Positions 1,492-44,794 of a DNA stretch of 59,566 nt are shown here, in pieces. The notes beneath the pieces were generated by a model. The model was given only the letters and a program-made list of their open reading frames with translations, was not told the DNA's origin and did not search any database. Origin of the DNA: Halioglobus sp. (GTDB lineage Bacteria; Pseudomonadota; Gammaproteobacteria; Pseudomonadales; Halieaceae); NCBI GenBank assembly GCA_029287595.1, contig JARFQU010000132.1, positions 1 through 59,566 on the forward strand, written 5' to 3'. The position numbers were made by a program, and so were the translations under genes. Each line of letters starts with the position of its first letter. Position 1 is the stretch's first letter.

Positions 1492-2425
1492 CCTTTGTCG
1501 CAGCGACTGCGCTTTCCTCCGGTGACGGTGGCACTTCCAGTGGCGGAGGCGCTTCATCTTCGGGCCCGAGCTGCTGATGAGTCAGCTTGCCCAACAACCC
1601 GGCTATAGTGCCGCGCATTTCCACACGGTGCACGATCATGTCGATGGCCCCGTGCTCCAGCAGAAATTCACTGCGTTGAAAGCCCTTGGGCAGCTTTTGC
1701 CTGATGGTCTGTTCGATAATATTAGGCCCGGCAAAGCCCGCCCGGGCATCGGGTTCGGCTATATTGATGTCGCCCAGCAATGCCAGGGACGCTGACACGC
1801 CGCCGTAGATGGGATCGGTCATCACTGACACATAGGGGACGCCCTGCAGTCTGAGGCGTTCGATAACAGCGCTGGTCTTGGCCATTTGCATCAGGGAGAT
1901 CAGCGCTTCCTGCATACGCGCGCCGCCGGATGCGGAAAAACAAACCAGGGGTATGCCCTCTTCCAGGGCCAATTGCGCGGAGCGGGTGAATTTTTCACCC
2001 ACCGCAAAACCCATGGAACCGCCGTGAAAATTGAACTCGAAAGCCAGGGCAACCACGGGCATGCCACGCAGGGTGCCGCGCATGGCGACCAGCGCATCTT
2101 TTTCACCGGTGGATTTCTGGGCGGCGGTCAGCCTGTCGCGGTAGCGCTTTTTATCTTTGAATTTGAGTCTGTCGACGGGTTCTATTTCGCTGAATATCTC
2201 TTCGCTGCCGGCCTCATCCAGGAAGATGGCCAGGCGGCGTCTCGCGCCGATGCGCATGTGATGATCACACTTGGGGCAGACATCGTTATTGCGTTCGACA
2301 TCAGGCCGGTACAGCACCGCATCGCATTTGACGCACTTTTTCCACAGTCCTTCAGGTACGCTGGAGCGCTTGTCGCTCTCTTCCCTGCGAACCCCTGATG
2401 GCAGAATCTTGTCAATCCAGCTCAT
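1484..2425 (-). CDS. accD: Acetyl-CoA carboxylase carboxyltransferase subunit beta
   Basis: Beta subunit of the carboxyltransferase that makes malonyl-CoA for fatty acid synthesis. The N-terminal four-cysteine zinc ribbon is visible (CVKC near residue 33 and CPKC about 20 residues later), followed by the crotonase-fold core with [12 protein letters not shown] and [11 protein letters not shown]. The 313-aa length fits the family. The C-terminal 20 or so residues are a Pro/Glu-rich tail ([17 protein letters not shown]). It sits between trpA and folC, the standard gammaproteobacterial order. Confidence 0.97.
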
Positions 2426-2475
2426 GCTACCCCCGACCCCGATTAAGGCCTCATTATAAACACCCAGGGGGGCAT

Positions 2476-3297
2476 CTAGGAAGCAATGCTATCTATACCC
2501 TCGCGAATCTCTGCCACTAAATTTCCAGCCGCATCGATTGCGGCCTGCTGGCCGCCGCCATCGGCGATTGCCCTGGCGATACGGCTGACCAGGGCGCTGC
2601 CCACCACCACTCCGGCAGCGGTTGCCGCAATAGCTTTCGCAGATTCCGCATCCTTGATGCCGAAGCCCACGGCTACCGGCAATGCGGTGTGCTGCTGGAT
2701 ACCGGCGACACCCGTGCGCACCGCATCCAGGTCCAGGTGACCGGCCCCGGTTACACCCTTCAGGGACACGTAGTAAATAAAACCACTGGCCTGGGCCGCA
2801 ATTCGCGCGACTCGCGCCTCCGGAGTGGTAGGCGCCACCAGGAAAATATTGTCCATGCCGACACGGTGTAACTCAGCATTCACCTGCCCCACTTCCTCGG
2901 GTGGCAGGTCGACTGCCAGCATGGCGTCGATACCGGCATCTGTCGCAGCATCAGCAAACGCTGCATAGCCCATATGTTCCACGGGGTTGGCGTAGCCCAT
3001 CAACAGCACGGGTGTAGTGGCGTCATCGCGACGGAATTGCGCTACCAGAGCAATCGCATCGCGCAAGCTCGTACCGTGGGCCAGTGCGCGCTCATGCGCC
3101 AGCTGTATAACCGGCCCCTCTGACATCGGATCGGAAAACGGCACACCCAGCTCTATGATGTCCGCCCCGCTCTCCACCAGGCGGTGCATTAGCGGTACGG
3201 TGGCTTCCAGGGAGGGGTCTCCCGCTACCACGTAAGGTATCAACGCCTTGCGGCCCTGCTCTGCTAATTCCCGGAAACGTCCGGCGATGCGACTCAC
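2476..3297 (-). CDS. trpA: Tryptophan synthase alpha chain
   Basis: Cleaves indole-3-glycerol phosphate to indole and passes it to TrpB. The catalytic Glu lies in [16 protein letters not shown] and the catalytic Asp in the same block (PFSDP). The phosphate-binding SLKGVTGAG and VAVGFGIK segments are also present. 273 aa is normal. It lies 13 bp after trpB, so the two are co-transcribed and translated together, as expected for the alpha2beta2 complex. Confidence 0.97.
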
Positions 3298-3310
3298 TCG
3301 GTATTACTCC

Positions 3311-4531
3311 CTAAAAATCTATGCCGTCGATCTGGGCAACGGTGTGAATGTCCTTGTCGCCTCTTCCTGAGAGGTTGACGATAATGCTTTGCTCCGGTGC
3401 CATAGTGGCCGCCAGTTTCTCGGCATAGGCCAGAGCGTGGCTGCTTTCCAGTGCGGGCATAATGCCTTCAATTCGCGTCAGGCTGTGGAATGCACGCAGT
3501 GCCTCGTCGTCATCGGCCACCACATACTGCACTCTGCCTACATCCTTAAGCCAGGAATGCTCCGGGCCGACACCGGGGTAATCCAGGCCGGCGGAAATAG
3601 AATGCGTATGCATGATCTGTCCATCGTCGTCCTGCATCAGGTAAGTGCGATTGCCATGCAATACCCCGGGGGTACCGGCGGTCAGTGGCGCCGCGTGCTG
3701 CGATGTGGCGACACCGTGCCCGCCGGCTTCCACACCGTACATGGCGACACTGGTGTCCTCCAGGAAAGGATGGAACAAACCGATGGCGTTGGAGCCTCCG
3801 CCCACGCATGCCACCAGTGCATCCGGCAGGCGACCGGCCTGCGCCAGCGACTGCGCCCGGGCCTCGCGACCTATGACACACTGAAAATCCCTAACCAGCA
3901 TGGGATAGGGATGCGGTCCGGCTACGGTGCCTATGATGTAGAAAGTATCATCGACATTGGTGACCCAGTCCCGCATAGCTTCGTTCATGGCATCTTTCAG
4001 TGTGCGTGAACCCGAGGTCACCGGGATGACTTCAGCGCCCAGCAGCTTCATGCGATACACATTAAGCGCCTGGCGGTGAACATCTTCCTCGCCCATAAAC
4101 ACCTGGCATTCCAGACCCAGGCGCGCAGCGATAGTGGCCGTAGCGACCCCGTGCTGTCCCGCCCCTGTTTCTGCGATCACCCGCTTCTTACCCATGTGCT
4201 TGGCGAGCAGCGCCTGGCCAATACAGTTATTGATCTTGTGCGCGCCGGTGTGATTAAGATCTTCGCGCTTGAGGTAAATGCGCGCACCACCTACCTGGTC
4301 AGACCAGCGGCTTGCCTCGTATAAGGGAGAGGGCCTGCCTACATAATGCGCCAGGTCCTGGTCTATCTCGCGCTGAAACGCCGGATCGGCGGAGAGCTGG
4401 TGATAGAGGTCCTCCAGCTCCGTCAGTGCCGACATCAGGGTCTCGGCGACGAATTTCCCGCCGTACACCCCAAAGCGACCATCCTCATCTGGCACCGTCG
4501 AAAAAATGGTTTCCCTTACGTCAGTGGTCAT
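3311..4531 (-). CDS. trpB: Tryptophan synthase beta chain
   Basis: PLP enzyme condensing indole with serine. The PLP lysine is in [14 protein letters not shown], and the glycine-rich phosphate loop is [11 protein letters not shown] start it at the ATG at 4531 ([10 protein letters not shown], 406 aa), because it is preceded by GGAAGGGTAAAGA, a good ribosome-binding site. The ATG seven codons upstream lacks one. The gap to trpF is 4 bp, giving a tight trpF-trpB-trpA unit. No trp leader or attenuator is obvious upstream. Confidence 0.97.
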
Positions 4532-40442: not shown

Positions 40443-41498
40443 ATGGCGATGCGACATCCCCGGCTTAACTCACTAAGTAATGCAGCCTGTGCCGACGGGG
40501 ACCACTGCCACGAAAATGAATTGGTGCACAGGTGCGCCAGCAAGGCCCTGCAACGCTTGCGCGCCTGCTTACTCCTGTTCTGCTTTGCGGGGATGGCCGG
40601 GCAGGTTCATCCTGCCGAAAGCACGCGCCAGGAATTGGTGCGCGATAACCGGGTGCTGGAAATTCACATCAGCACCCATTTCAGCGAAAACATGCGCCAG
40701 AACCTGGTGGAGTGGCTGAATTTCATCGCCACCTCATTGCAACAGGTGTATGGCCACTGGCCGCGACAACGCTGGCAGATCTCCGTGACCCCCACATCAG
40801 CTGGATCCGCTGACCCCATACCCTGGGCACAGGTCCACCGGGGTGAACCTGACCGCGTGGAGTTCTTTACCGCAGCCCGGGCCAGCGTAGCCGAGTTAAA
40901 ACGGGCCTGGACCAGCTACCACGAACTCGCCCATCTGCTCATCCCCTATCGTGGCTACGGAGACGCATGGTTCAGCGAGGGTCTGGCCAGTTACTACCAG
41001 AACATCCTGCAGGCGCGCAGTGGCGTAATCACCGAGCAGCAGATGTGGCAAAAGCTATACGATGGCTATCAGCGCGGCCTGGCCGATACCGCGTTCGATG
41101 GTGTGGCGCTGCAGGAAGCCAGCAAACGAATGCGTCAGCAAGGCGGTTTCATGCGGGTCTACTGGAGCGGCGCCTGGTATTTCCTGGCGGCAGACGCTCG
41201 CCTGCGCCAGCAATCCGGCGGTAAATACACATTGGATATGGCCCTTGAAAAACTCAATGGGTGTTGCGCAGACCAGCAACTGTCGGTCGTCGAAATCGTG
41301 AGCAGGCTGGACCAGCTGAACCGGGTGATCCTGTTCCAGGGCCTGTATGAAGAACTGGTGAACTCCACAAGTATCCCTCCCTATGAGCCCATCTATGCCA
41401 GCCTGGGCATAGCGCTGGACAACGGCAAGGTCGTACTGCAGAGCAGTGGCCCGGGTGCGCGCCTACGGCAGCAGATTGCCAGCGGCAAGACCCTGTAA
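40443..41498 (+). CDS. Putative M61/M1-like zinc metallopeptidase, secreted
   Basis: 351 aa by the first ATG; the true start is uncertain because the probable signal segment (LRACLLLFCFAGMAGQVHPA) begins near residue 39. The active-site signature HELAH (160-164) is followed by WFSEGLASYYQ, with E179 as the likely third zinc ligand, 15 residues after H164. That is shorter than the usual M1/M61 spacing. The C-terminal YASLGIALDNGKVVL resembles the end of M61-like domains. Substrate unknown. Confidence 0.7.
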   Translation: MAMRHPRLNSLSNAACADGDHCHENELVHRCASKALQRLRACLLLFCFAGMAGQVHPAESTRQELVRDNRVLEIHISTHFSENMRQNLVEWLNFIATSLQQVYGHWPRQRWQISVTPTSAGSADPIPWAQVHRGEPDRVEFFTAARASVAELKRAWTSYHELAHLLIPYRGYGDAWFSEGLASYYQNILQARSGVITEQQMWQKLYDGYQRGLADTAFDGVALQEASKRMRQQGGFMRVYWSGAWYFLAADARLRQQSGGKYTLDMALEKLNGCCADQQLSVVEIVSRLDQLNRVILFQGLYEELVNSTSIPPYEPIYASLGIALDNGKVVLQSSGPGARLRQQIASGKTL

Positions 41499-41561
41499 TT
41501 GTCCGCTGGCGGCGTTATACTAAGCCGTTTGCAAGCTGCCAATTGAAGGCGAACCAGGCCA

Positions 41562-41897
41562 TTGAAAAAACCCGTATCAAAAGATGATATTCGCGCTGAA
41601 CTGGAGAATGCCACAGAACGCTTTCTGCAACAGGGCGGAAATGTGGAAAACATCCCCCGGGGCATCAGCGGCAAGGATCCCGGGGATGCCCCGATTTTCC
41701 TCAATCGCAGATTATTCGTGGAACCCCGCACCAAACGCACCCTGGTGCCGGAAGTGGTAGCGGCAATCGAGGCGCGCCGCAAGGACAAGATGTCGCGTAA
41801 ACCTCAGCGCAAGCGCAGTCGTCTGCCGCAGCCACGACGCAAAATTATCTACGATGATTTCGGTGAACCACTAAGGAAGGTCTGGGTGGAAGACTAG
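41562..41897 (+). CDS. Small basic protein of unknown function
   Basis: 111 aa with a TTG start; no in-frame ATG is close. GAAGG lies upstream. The N-terminal part (ELENATERFLQQGGNVENIPRGISG) recalls the short conserved motif of some gammaproteobacterial regulators. The middle is basic (RRKDKMSRKPQRKRSRLPQPRR) and could bind nucleic acid, and the end is acidic-aromatic (DDFGEPLRKVWVED). No function assigned. Confidence 0.65.
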   Translation: MKKPVSKDDIRAELENATERFLQQGGNVENIPRGISGKDPGDAPIFLNRRLFVEPRTKRTLVPEVVAAIEARRKDKMSRKPQRKRSRLPQPRRKIIYDDFGEPLRKVWVED

Positions 41898-41916
41898 AGA
41901 TTTTTAAGCAAAGAAA

Positions 41917-41936
41917 AAAGGGGCCGAAGCCCCTTT
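41917..41936. terminator. Bidirectional intrinsic terminator
   Basis: Stem AAAGGGGC/GCCCCTTT with a 4-nt loop, which reads TTCG on the minus strand, an extra-stable tetraloop. A run of six T follows on the minus strand and three on the plus strand. It sits in the 60 bp between the convergent small basic gene and the sortase substrate gene, so it terminates both. Confidence 0.85.
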
Positions 41937-41957
41937 CAGTACACACTAGCTTATCAT

Positions 41958-42542
41958 TCAGGAAAAGCGACGGCGAACGCCACTCAGCAGACCACCCAGC
42001 GCCAGGAAGGCACCGCCAGCCAGACCGATCAGGAACAACGGGCTTGCCGTGGTAGGCATTTCCGTAGCTGCACCAATATCCATCATGTCGGAATCATCCA
42101 GACCGTCATCGTCTACCACTGCCAGGGCGAAACGATCTTCGGGCAGGTACACGTTCAGCTCCTGACCACGAGACAGATCGCTGGCGCGATAACTGCGACC
42201 GGCAATATTTGCACGCCAGCTGCTATCCAGCGTCACCGAGCGGCTGTCGCCCAGGGTACCGTCGGTATGCTTGGGACGAAATGTCATGGTGTTGCCACGC
42301 ACACGAACCACCTCAACAGAAGTCTTGGCGTACAACTTGCCGTCCTTCTCGTACACGGTCTGACACATCGCCGCAATGTCAGGATTCAGCGCCAGTACTT
42401 CCGCAGACCAGTTCAGGTCGGCACAAGTGACTGTAGTACTTTGCACTGCACCGGTACTGGTGGTCTCCTGCGCCATCAGCTGTCCCGCTGACAGGGCAAG
42501 TGCCATTCCTACTGCTGCTACTACCTTCTTCTTCTTGGACAT
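41958..42542 (-). CDS. Exported protein with LPxTA-like C-terminal sorting signal
   Basis: 194 aa from the ATG at 42542, preceded by a perfect AAAGGAGGA. Signal peptide 1-25 (KKKKVVAAVGMALALSAG, cut after MAQ). The mature part has two Cys (40, 60) that could form a disulfide, and a strand-rich domain. The end is a textbook sorting signal: MPTTA (162-166), a hydrophobic stretch (168-187), then RRR (190-192). The sortase gene ends 13 bp upstream. No family is recognised for the mature domain. Confidence 0.85.
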   Translation of the reverse strand: MSKKKKVVAAVGMALALSAGQLMAQETTSTGAVQSTTVTCADLNWSAEVLALNPDIAAMCQTVYEKDGKLYAKTSVEVVRVRGNTMTFRPKHTDGTLGDSRSVTLDSSWRANIAGRSYRASDLSRGQELNVYLPEDRFALAVVDDDGLDDSDMMDIGAATEMPTTASPLFLIGLAGGAFLALGGLLSGVRRRFS

Positions 42543-42555
42543 GTCAAATCCTCCT

Positions 42556-43269
42556 TTAGTTTTGATTGACATAGGTTGTGTCGAGCTGCGCGGTCACGAT
42601 GAATCGCTTGGGCGCATGCCCGACAAAATAAAACGGGTAACAGGTCACCAGGGTGACCGTCTGATCCTTGGTATCTCGTAACAGGCGCTTATCGCCGATT
42701 GCCACTATTTCGGTGGCGGCAATGTGAAAACGCTTGGGGCCTTCCAGGGTCTCCAGCAAGATGGGGTCGCCCACTTTGATATCTTTGAGGGCGCGAAAAT
42801 AACCGTCCCGGTGGCCCGAGATACCGATATTGCCGGGTTCATGGGGATAGGCCATGCCGTCAATGATACCGGCGCCACGGTCCATCACCAGTTCCGAATT
42901 GCTCTGGTAGACCGGCACTTTGACTCCAACCGAAGGGATTTCCAGCACGCCCACCACGGGCGGCAGCTCCGCCTGCAGACTGGCCTGGTAATCGGCGACG
43001 CGGCCGGGCGCCCACAGGCTGGTGTCGGGCTCGCCTACGCTCTGTTCAAAGGCAAATTCAGTCGCTGGAGCATCTGCAGGAGGCTGCCCTGTAATGGAGG
43101 ACTCAGCAATATGGGCATCGGCGGCCTGTTGAAATTCAGAGATCCCACTTTGACGCTCCACTTCACCCTGGGCCAGTTGCACCAGGAAAAAGCCGGACAG
43201 CACGATACCCGCCGCGTAGCAAAGCAACTCCCCCGAACGGTATACCAGTGCATCCAGTCTAACCGGCAT
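42556..43269 (-). CDS. Sortase (class D-like) in a Gram-negative genome
   Basis: 237 aa. An N-terminal membrane anchor (about 15-33) and an Ala/Pro-rich linker (about 35-100) lead to the sortase beta-barrel. The catalytic residues are H153 in GISGHRDGYF, C210 in TLVTCYPF, and R222 in APKRF. The TLVTC context and barrel resemble class D enzymes, whose known substrates carry LPNTA-type motifs. The adjacent MPTTA protein fits that preference. First gene of a two-gene unit. Confidence 0.92.
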   Translation of the reverse strand: MPVRLDALVYRSGELLCYAAGIVLSGFFLVQLAQGEVERQSGISEFQQAADAHIAESSITGQPPADAPATEFAFEQSVGEPDTSLWAPGRVADYQASLQAELPPVVGVLEIPSVGVKVPVYQSNSELVMDRGAGIIDGMAYPHEPGNIGISGHRDGYFRALKDIKVGDPILLETLEGPKRFHIAATEIVAIGDKRLLRDTKDQTVTLVTCYPFYFVGHAPKRFIVTAQLDTTYVNQN

Positions 43270-43642
43270 GTTTCAGTGCATTCCCCTAAGCAGATGCAAC
43301 TTTAAAGCCCGCCTGCAGGCCAGCGCCTGCAAAAACGTTACGTAAACCACAGTCTATATTCTAGTATCTTTATTCAAAGACGCCAGCTTATGTCGATATT
43401 GAAATATAAGCGTGCAATGTAACCCCATTATTCTAACGACTGCAATAGCAATTTAGGCGCCGTTCATGCTTTTAACGTATATCAATGAGACACCAAGCGC
43501 TTTATCTCGCCATAAGCCGTACAGAAATAGCCGCCTGGTATCCACTATTTAAACTGACAGCACCGCCGATGCTTATTGCATTGCAATAAAATTCAAGCAT
43601 GACTACCTTAACACGCTTAACCGTCCCCGGAGTGCCACCGCA
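43270..43642. other. AT-rich 373-bp divergent control region
   Basis: Separates the sortase unit (minus) from the epoxide hydrolase (plus). It is clearly lower in GC than its neighbours. It contains a hairpin-forming GCAGGC/GCCTGC dyad near the sortase leader and a nested palindrome close to the hydrolase (separate entry). No supported gene. Confidence 0.7.
43569..43600. promoter_or_regulatory. Nested palindrome upstream of the epoxide hydrolase gene
   Basis: Inner perfect dyad TTATTGCA-T-TGCAATAA (43573-43589), with outer arms ATGCTT (43569-43574) and AAGCAT (43595-43600). It lies 43 bp before the hydrolase ATG. The length and symmetry suit a dimeric repressor such as a TetR-type protein, but no regulator gene is adjacent. 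Confidence 0.5.
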
Positions 43643-44794
43643 ATGAGTGATGCAATCACGCCATTTACCGTTAATATTGCCGAGTCTGAGTTACAGGACC
43701 TGCGACGGCGGCTGCAGCAAACGCGCTGGCCCGAACGGGAGACCTGCGACGACTGGAGTCAGGGAATGCCGTTGGCCTACACCCGTGAACTGGCGGACTA
43801 CTGGGCAACAGACTACGACTGGCGCCGCTTTGAGCGCAAACTCAACAGCTGGCCCCATTTCATAACCTGCATCGACGACCTGGACATACACTTCATCCAC
43901 TGCAGGAGCCCCCACGAGGACGCCCTGCCGCTGATTATTTCCTACGGCTGGCCCGGTTCAGTGGTGGAATTTCACAAAATCATTGACGCTCTGACCGATC
44001 CCACCGCCCACGGCGGCAAAGCCGAAGATGCCTTTCACGTGGTGGCACCCTCACTGCCCGGCTTCGATTTCTCCGGCAAACCCGAGACCACCGGTACTTC
44101 AGTAGAAAAAATCGGCGGCATGTGGGGGCAACTGATGGCCAGGCTGGGGTATGACCGCTATGTGGCCCAGGGTGGCGACTGGGGCAGTATGATCACCCAA
44201 AGCATGGGCCAGACGGAAACCACCCATTGCGCGGGCATTCACATCAATATGCCGATAGTCGCGCCCGACCCGGAAACCATGGACCAACTCACCCCCCAGG
44301 AGCAGTCGGCCCTGGAGGGGATTAGCTTTTACAGCGAGTGGGGCTCTGGATACTCCAAGCAGCAGTCCACCCGCCCGCAGACGCTGGCCTATGGCCTGGC
44401 GGACTCTCCGGTTGGTCAAATGGCCTGGATTATCGAGAAATTCTACGCCTGGACGGACTGTGAGCAGGACGGCGTCAGCCATCCCGAGAACATATTGTCG
44501 CGGGATGAAATGCTGGATAACGTCATGATGTACTGGCTCAACAATTGCGCAGCCAGCTCAGCGCGACTGTACTGGGAAAGTTACCGAACTCCCAACCTGG
44601 ACCCCATTACCATGCCCGTGGGTTGTACTGTTTTTCCACGGGAGATCTTTCGCTGCAGCCGGCGCTGGGCCCTGAAACGTTTTTCCAACTTGATTCACTG
44701 GGGCGAGCCCGAGCGCGGCGGTCATTTCGCCGCCCTGGAGCAGCCGGAGATTTTTCTACAGGAGGTGCGCGACTGCTTTCGCCAACTACGCTGA
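43643..44794 (+). CDS. Epoxide hydrolase (EHN family, alpha/beta fold)
   Basis: 383 aa. The N-terminal EHN domain (ITPFTVNIAESELQDLRRRLQQTRWPE) is followed by an alpha/beta hydrolase core. The nucleophile is D179 in AQGGDWGSM, and the catalytic His is H361 in ERGGHFAALEQPE. This is the juvenile-hormone/microsomal-type family, opening epoxides to diols. The HGxP-like oxyanion segment reads SYGWPGSVVEF. Substrate not determinable. Confidence 0.93.
   Translation: MSDAITPFTVNIAESELQDLRRRLQQTRWPERETCDDWSQGMPLAYTRELADYWATDYDWRRFERKLNSWPHFITCIDDLDIHFIHCRSPHEDALPLIISYGWPGSVVEFHKIIDALTDPTAHGGKAEDAFHVVAPSLPGFDFSGKPETTGTSVEKIGGMWGQLMARLGYDRYVAQGGDWGSMITQSMGQTETTHCAGIHINMPIVAPDPETMDQLTPQEQSALEGISFYSEWGSGYSKQQSTRPQTLAYGLADSPVGQMAWIIEKFYAWTDCEQDGVSHPENILSRDEMLDNVMMYWLNNCAASSARLYWESYRTPNLDPITMPVGCTVFPREIFRCSRRWALKRFSNLIHWGEPERGGHFAALEQPEIFLQEVRDCFRQLR

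Follow-up and report, generated by a model that had tools for sequence, protein, structure and literature searches.

To our knowledge, the role of sortases in bacteria whose wall lies under an outer membrane is an open question, and the window analyzed here (the whole stretch of 59,566 nucleotides from Halioglobus sp., contig JARFQU010000132.1) raises it in a compact form: do a sortase gene and the adjacent gene for a small exported protein constitute a dedicated system and, if so, what becomes of the protein? The pair is very probably a dedicated sortase system, with the exported protein as the target of the enzyme, and the explanation that best covers the observations as a whole, which we consider probable, is that the sortase links the barrel domain of this protein to periplasmic peptidoglycan. 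Earlier papers on sortases reportedly include Pallen 2001 and Comfort and Clubb 2004. No description of a pair of this type was recognized in the open-licence literature searched, and the available parts of PMC12445088, PMC10501053 and PMC10100682 contain nothing on it.

The initial annotation described a sortase with intact H153, C210 and R222, followed 13 bp downstream by an exported protein that ends in MPTTA, a hydrophobic span and RRR, and a strong terminator closing the two-gene unit. All of this was borne out by the open reading frames, the structural models and the alignments, the gene pair, the catalytic residues and the tail being computed directly (Table 1). The start codon of the substrate gene lies 13 bp past the sortase stop, and AAAGGAGG just upstream reads by eye as a good ribosome-binding site; because of this site, the start at 42542 is preferred over an alternative ATG at 42572, which would give 204 amino acids and overlap the sortase stop. 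The terminator, present at 41937-41916(-), reads GAAAGGGGCTTCGGCCCCTTTT then TTCTTTGCTT, and the region 41400-43700 contains 8 terminator-like sites compared to a shuffle mean of 2.3. A sigma-70-like promoter was looked for upstream of the pair and none was found. The genes identified on the flanks encode an epoxide hydrolase, a SutA-like protein and an M61 peptidase. The convergent neighbor at 41562-41897(+) carries the SutA RNA-polymerase-binding domain (Pfam PF20661), and a SutA-like gene adjoins the substrate gene in many tailed loci as well as in 9 of the 11 tail-less loci described below.

Table 1 Features of the sortase locus and the basis on which each was assigned.
Feature	Position	Strand	Basis
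Sortase gene, class D-like, 237 aa	42556-43269	(-)	ORF list, profile matches and model
Sortase N-terminal helix, residues 5-60, holding the presumed membrane anchor; sortase domain, about residues 104-231			Model (helix)
Catalytic His153 codon	42811-42813	(-)	Invariant in 58/58 aligned sortases
Catalytic Cys210 codon, within TLVTCYPF	42640-42642	(-)	Invariant in 58/58 aligned sortases
Catalytic Arg222 codon	42604-42606	(-)	Invariant in 58/58 aligned sortases
Probable dedicated substrate gene, exported protein, 194 aa	41958-42542	(-)	ORF, alignment and tail profile
Likely Sec signal peptide, residues 1-24, cleavage after LMA	42471-42542	(-)	Read by eye from the sequence
Substrate mature domain, about residues 35-140: Cys40/Cys60, then predicted small beta-barrel	42123-42440	(-)	Model and alignment
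Sorting motif MPTTA, residues 162-166; predicted cleavage Thr165/Ala166	42045-42059	(-)	Pro163 and Thr165 invariant in 41/41
Sorting-signal hydrophobic helix, residues 168-189	41976-42041	(-)	Model helix 169-193
Basic tail RRR, residues 190-192	41967-41975	(-)	Sequence; Arg190 invariant in 41/41
Intrinsic terminator closing the two-gene unit, stem 41937-41916 and T-rich tail	41906-41937	(-)	

That the enzyme belongs to the sortase superfamily is indicated by its scores against Pfam Sortase PF04203 (85.7 bits, cut-off 26.6) and NCBIfam TIGR01076 (71.6, cut-off 39.35), and by the combination of a sortase fold (best match of the model among solved structures, Z 21.7, rmsd 2.0 over 132 residues) with a Cys-His-Arg triad that is invariant in all 58 sortases of an alignment hand-picked for spread, the window's included (A4). 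Fold comparison hardly separates classes A, C, D and E, and class C pilus sortases are among the best structural matches. By sequence, the window sortase is nearer to class D than to the other classes: among six NCBIfam models, the two class D models give the top scores, and a search of the PDB with the sortase profile ranks 2ln7, which we take to be SrtC, a class D sortase from B. anthracis, and 4d70, C. perfringens sortase D by its entry title, in the first places; with the single sequence, 2ln7 is again first and 4d70 eighth, below class C entries. Thus, the class D likeness suggested at the outset held for the ranking of models and profile matches but not for membership, the window enzyme falling under every curated class cut-off, those of class D included (NF033746, 110.1 vs. 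165; NF058671, 118.8 vs. 140), and because it scores top against these models yet below their cut-offs we call it class D-like without filing it as class D. When 19 relatives were scanned singly, many of them as matched stretches, which lowers the scores, none reached the broad class D cut-off of 165, and the sole pass was that of an Acidobacteriota sortase (L068) with the narrower SrtD model (146.4 vs. 140). The class GN model TIGR03784 gave 73.6 with the window enzyme, against a cut-off of 158.25.

The window substrate was aligned with others to give 41 sequences, hand-picked for spread (A1), in all of which Cys40 and Cys60 are invariant. In the predicted structure, block means of pLDDT are 90-97 for residues 41-130, 84 for 131-140 and 74 for 31-40; we read the modeled barrel as OB-like. 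An acidic linker separates it from MPTTA, which agrees with an LPxTA-type motif in having Ala after Thr. Pfam yielded nothing for the protein, and no NCBIfam model scored over its cut-off, those for sorting signals included (TIGR01167, 11.6 vs. 15.9; NF058670, 15.8 vs. 32). When sets of 41 and 19 aligned substrates were scanned against both libraries, the matches were mostly to models of anchor motifs, with a few isolated others and no barrel family. The substrate profile found nothing below E 0.04 among PDB sequences. When the substrate model was compared with known folds, no structure matched at E ≤0.001 or reached Z ≥5, and with no significant match no function was drawn for the barrel from this search; its best rows, an AXH domain (Z 4.0) and EF-P/IF5A (Z about 3.5), may merely reflect a common barrel. 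The barrel module is common to the substrates of more distant loci from Acidobacteriota, Myxococcota, Gemmatimonadota and some Pseudomonadota (alignments A5 and A6), occurring twice in the A5 substrates: profile comparisons of the barrel without the tail gave probabilities of 95.8, 88.9 and 97.2, whereas the controls stayed at ≤0.6 (column shuffles, 50 per comparison) and ≤3.2 (reversed profiles).

One enzyme and one substrate in a diderm, as had been proposed, is what the genome-wide scan for tails found, with the single tail match backed by the co-occurrence and kept adjacency reported below. A profile of 29 hand-picked C-terminal tails, the window's own among them (A3), matched the window substrate at E 4.1e-15, and the next match in the genome, at 0.88, is partial and reads as a multi-span membrane protein; a pattern scan of the window called 1 of 512 ORFs. 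The tail is therefore more than a chance likeness. A second target may have been missed because the genome is 94.67% complete. LptD is present, which implies an outer membrane.

Co-occurrence was analyzed in 97 related genomes, the own genome included, with a sortase called at ≥100 bits with the window's enzyme. Such a sortase was found in 27 genomes, and sortase fragments at contig edges in two others (G011 and G042) were counted among the 70 without. The remaining sortase matches score ≤55.3 bits, and those complete enough to judge look like class GN (the one from the own genome alone was scored). At E 0.01 the tail profile matched 26 of the 27 genomes with the sortase, and in the 27th (G060), missed by the profile, MPSTA, a hydrophobic span and basic residues were recognized by eye in the gene adjoining the sortase. 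Among the 70 genomes without a sortase of the window type, the sole match was weak (0.0075, in G021) and lies beside that genome's own low-scoring sortase. The co-occurrence anticipated in relatives was thus confirmed, and the single tail in the genome, the co-occurrence and the joint absence described below were all computed directly. The one-substrate rule, which holds in the window's genome, has exceptions, with two tail matches each in G001 and G008. G015 has two sortases and two tail matches, and in G063 the tailed gene (LPDSA) is 23 kb away from the sortase. The second tailed homologue of G008 sits on a different contig than the sortase; this stretch (L124:2421-3569, contig C1), with no sortase match, carries LPKTAS and a hydrophobic span midway along an ORF of 382 residues, and the same frame continues with a second hydrophobic span and barrel-like sequence. 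In a further class-wide sample of 321 genomes, sortase matches at E 1e-20 occurred in 29, the own genome scoring 287 bits and the others ≤98.6 bits; we read the latter as mostly class GN. The tail profile matched the own genome in this sample and, weakly, G182, G302 and G305, the last near a 75-bit sortase on the opposite strand.

According to the initial annotation, substrate homologues lacking the MPTTA, transmembrane and RRR end would count against the pairing. Such homologues exist, but only where no adjoining sortase gene was found, and this confinement strengthens the pairing. The 97 genomes include 36 with a substrate homologue, and in 10 genomes without the sortase the homologue ends after the barrel; G009 has a tailed pair elsewhere and a tail-less copy in the window's synteny. 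In none of the 11 tail-less loci was a sortase gene found beside the homologue (11/11). Nine of them keep neighbors of the window pair, always including the SutA-like gene, which is the only one kept in L120, and none of these neighbors was found in L115 and L116. The best match for a sortase remnant in the 11 loci has E 0.11, and no decayed tail was recognizable in three frames after the 11 stops. Weak tail matches in these loci go down to E 0.004, those of L115 lying within coding sequence in another frame and those read in L113, L114 and L123 lying elsewhere; the open frame of L123 has an odd N-terminus, perhaps due to a frameshift. In a tree of the mature domain with 28 tailed and 11 tail-less rows (the tailed rows under one label, including L124, which has no adjoining sortase), the tail state changes about three times, with at least 2 changes forced by well-supported branches, although the exact number is soft, given the shortness of the domain and a few long branches. 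The tail-less pair L113/L114 is nested in the window's own clade (99/98). According to these distributions, sortase and tail come and go together, and nothing argues more strongly for a tail that serves the sortase than the loci in which both are absent. Retention of a tail-less barrel in 10 genomes without the sortase implies that anchoring is not essential to the role of the barrel.

A genome scan confirmed 178 loci, and the best 80 of these were examined (50 from Pseudomonadota, 26 Acidobacteriota, 2 Myxococcota, 1 Gemmatimonadota and 1 unassigned). Among these best 80 of 178, a tailed gene lies within the examined stretch in 69, and in 66, across four phyla, this gene shares the strand of the sortase and overlaps it or is at most 150 bp away; 59 of the 66 are downstream and 7 upstream, with a median downstream gap of 12 bp. 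Tail patterns were called in 66 of the 907 ORFs at ≤150 bp from the sortase compared to 4 of the 5967 farther away in these 80 loci, and 3 of the 4 distant calls look like true substrates (L047, L090 and L104). The 66 ORFs and the 66 loci are different sets: the ORF count leaves out L092, where the substrate frame spans the sortase, and includes L094, where the substrate is on the other strand. In the 69 tailed loci among the best 80, Thr is followed by Ala in 55, by Gly in 13 and by Ser in 1, and the first residue of the motif is Leu in 48 and Met in 21. Of the 11 loci without a tail call among the 80, three (L054, L078 and L105) are truncated at the edge of a contig, L105 within the apparent substrate gene, and eight, which are not cut near the sortase, are pattern misses with no tailed gene within the examined stretch. 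The substrates of Povalibacter and of a Steroidobacter relative (L090:9281-9880(-) and L094:6753-7352(-)) carry LPHTA and do not share the strand of the sortase, from which they are separated by about 2.6 kb and 63 bp, respectively; in L047:6695-7892(+), one sortase is followed by two tailed substrates in tandem.

With respect to mechanism, the substrate would be exported by Sec and fold in the periplasm into a small disulphide-containing barrel, with its C-terminal helix keeping it in the inner membrane. The membrane-anchored sortase would then attack the Thr-Ala bond of MPTTA via Cys210 to form an acyl-enzyme. Most likely, a peptidoglycan precursor would resolve this intermediate through the side-chain amine of its meso-diaminopimelate, and the barrel would end up bound covalently to the thin wall in the periplasm. 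Gammaproteobacterial peptidoglycan contains meso-diaminopimelate. Cleavage of the substrate by the sortase is almost certain, and the cut is placed between Thr and Ala because of the sortase family; transpeptidation rather than release is likely, and peptidoglycan is, on balance, the favored acceptor, so that of the three fates named in the initial annotation (attachment to periplasmic murein, attachment to a secreted polymer, or release) the first is preferred. In B. anthracis, according to the accessible part of PMC3297441, a class D sortase cuts LPNTA between Thr and Ala, with wall m-Dpm as the acceptor. Weighing against this account are the barrels kept without a tail, among them the copy in G009 despite the sortase of that genome, the eight untailed sortase loci, the tailed genes of G063 and G008 that lie far from a sortase or on another contig, and the class C entries that precede 4d70 in the single-sequence search.

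Alternatively, the sortase could act as an endopeptidase, whereby MPTTA is cut, water resolves the acyl-enzyme and a soluble periplasmic protein is released, tethering in the inner membrane before the cut timing the release. In agreement with this scenario, the tail-less homologues resemble soluble proteins of the periplasm, and a soluble form thus appears to be functional. The same observation cuts the other way, however, given that a substrate gene could arrive at this product by losing the tail, with no enzyme needed, so that a sortase kept merely for release would be redundant, yet the pair is kept in 27 of the 97 genomes (own genome included). The catalytic residues and the fold are, furthermore, those of known transpeptidases, and we regard release as unlikely. 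Transfer to another amine, e.g. one carried by a lipid, by a component of the outer membrane or by a secreted polymer, has a parallel in type IX secretion cargo tethered by a glycolipid, a non-murein anchor of Gram-negative bacteria (accessible part of PMC7468200); this outcome appears quite improbable, considering that the flanking epoxide hydrolase, SutA-like and M61 peptidase genes suggest no such polymer and that the closest characterized class D enzyme uses m-Dpm (PMC3297441, as far as the accessible text goes).

Two further possibilities carry little weight. Conceivably, the sortase polymerizes its substrate in the manner of a pilin, as the presence of class C pilus sortases among the best structural matches might suggest, but no lysine is invariant across the 41 aligned substrates, which makes polymerization unlikely, and the window has no other tailed ORF (1/512), so that we consider this reading very improbable. 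That the two genes are chance neighbors without a functional link is barely credible: the tail-less homologues do show that the barrel does not need a sortase, and a tailed gene is missing from the examined stretch at eight sortase loci among the best 80 of 178, but same-strand adjacency in 66 of these 80, against 4 tail calls in 5967 distant ORFs, and the joint presence and absence across relatives argue strongly for a link.

Linkage of the barrel to peptidoglycan by the sortase would resemble known systems in some respects and differ from each. Among class D systems, as described in the available parts of PMC3297441, PMC3208642 and PMC4498605, B. anthracis SrtC (BasH/BasI) takes LPNTA and has one substrate gene in the same operon, and the C. 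perfringens SrtD gene is in an operon with an anchor protein but differs in preferring LPQTGS. Pairs of the window type are found in diderm lineages, their motifs start with Met or Leu, and their substrates share a barrel for which no Pfam or NCBIfam family was found. We know of no sporulation in the diderm lineages that carry them. Braun's lipoprotein and the L,D-transpeptidases likewise provide for a small envelope protein joined covalently to meso-Dpm of thin peptidoglycan (available text of PMC8263019), with a different enzyme family and the opposite chemistry: in Lpp, a lysine amine is joined to the m-Dpm carboxyl, whereas in the window substrate the threonine carboxyl would join the m-Dpm amine. 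The rhombosortase/GlyGly-CTERM and exosortase/PEP-CTERM systems share a motif-helix-basic C-terminal signal that co-occurs with the enzyme, and genomes with a single rhombosortase target tend to have an adjacent pair (PMC3237569, in part), but the enzymes are unrelated and there are usually many targets per genome.

Dedicated sortases of Gram-negative bacteria are already known via class GN (TIGR03784), described as dedicated and strictly Gram-negative, with the target encoded by an adjacent gene (available part of PMC3237569); the window pair differs from it in enzyme class, substrate family and distribution, and is of a type that constitutes a real, widespread dedicated sortase system. More tentatively, these as yet unnamed diderm sortases could, as a widespread group, link one small barrel protein to murein via meso-diaminopimelate, separately from L,D-transpeptidases, with sortase and signal gained or lost as a unit. 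The system is small, with one substrate in the window's genome, and is also present in named cultured strains, e.g. Halioglobus pacificus and Pseudohalioglobus lutimaris; with relatives that naturally are without both the enzyme and the tail, it makes the role of sortases in diderms directly testable. Should the protein prove to be bound to murein, thin Gram-negative walls would receive proteins by way of sortases as well as L,D-transpeptidases.

Two of the untailed sortase loci, both from Acidobacteriota (L097:3444-5953 and L106:606-3189), are followed by two L,D-transpeptidase-like genes, assigned by Pfam in L097 (YkuD and YkuD_2) and by resemblance in L106, and L084 seems to carry the second of these genes alone; we take such neighbors as a hint of wall chemistry and no more. 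The window's genome also encodes a second sortase, which belongs to class GN (209.7 vs. a cut-off of 158.25, TIGR03784; L002, contig C187, 1432-2076(-)). It is adjoined at 2054-3334(-) by a gene for a VWA protein that ends in YPRTATT, a hydrophobic span and RR and looks like its target, a pair that represents the known dedicated Gram-negative system and is separate from that of the window.
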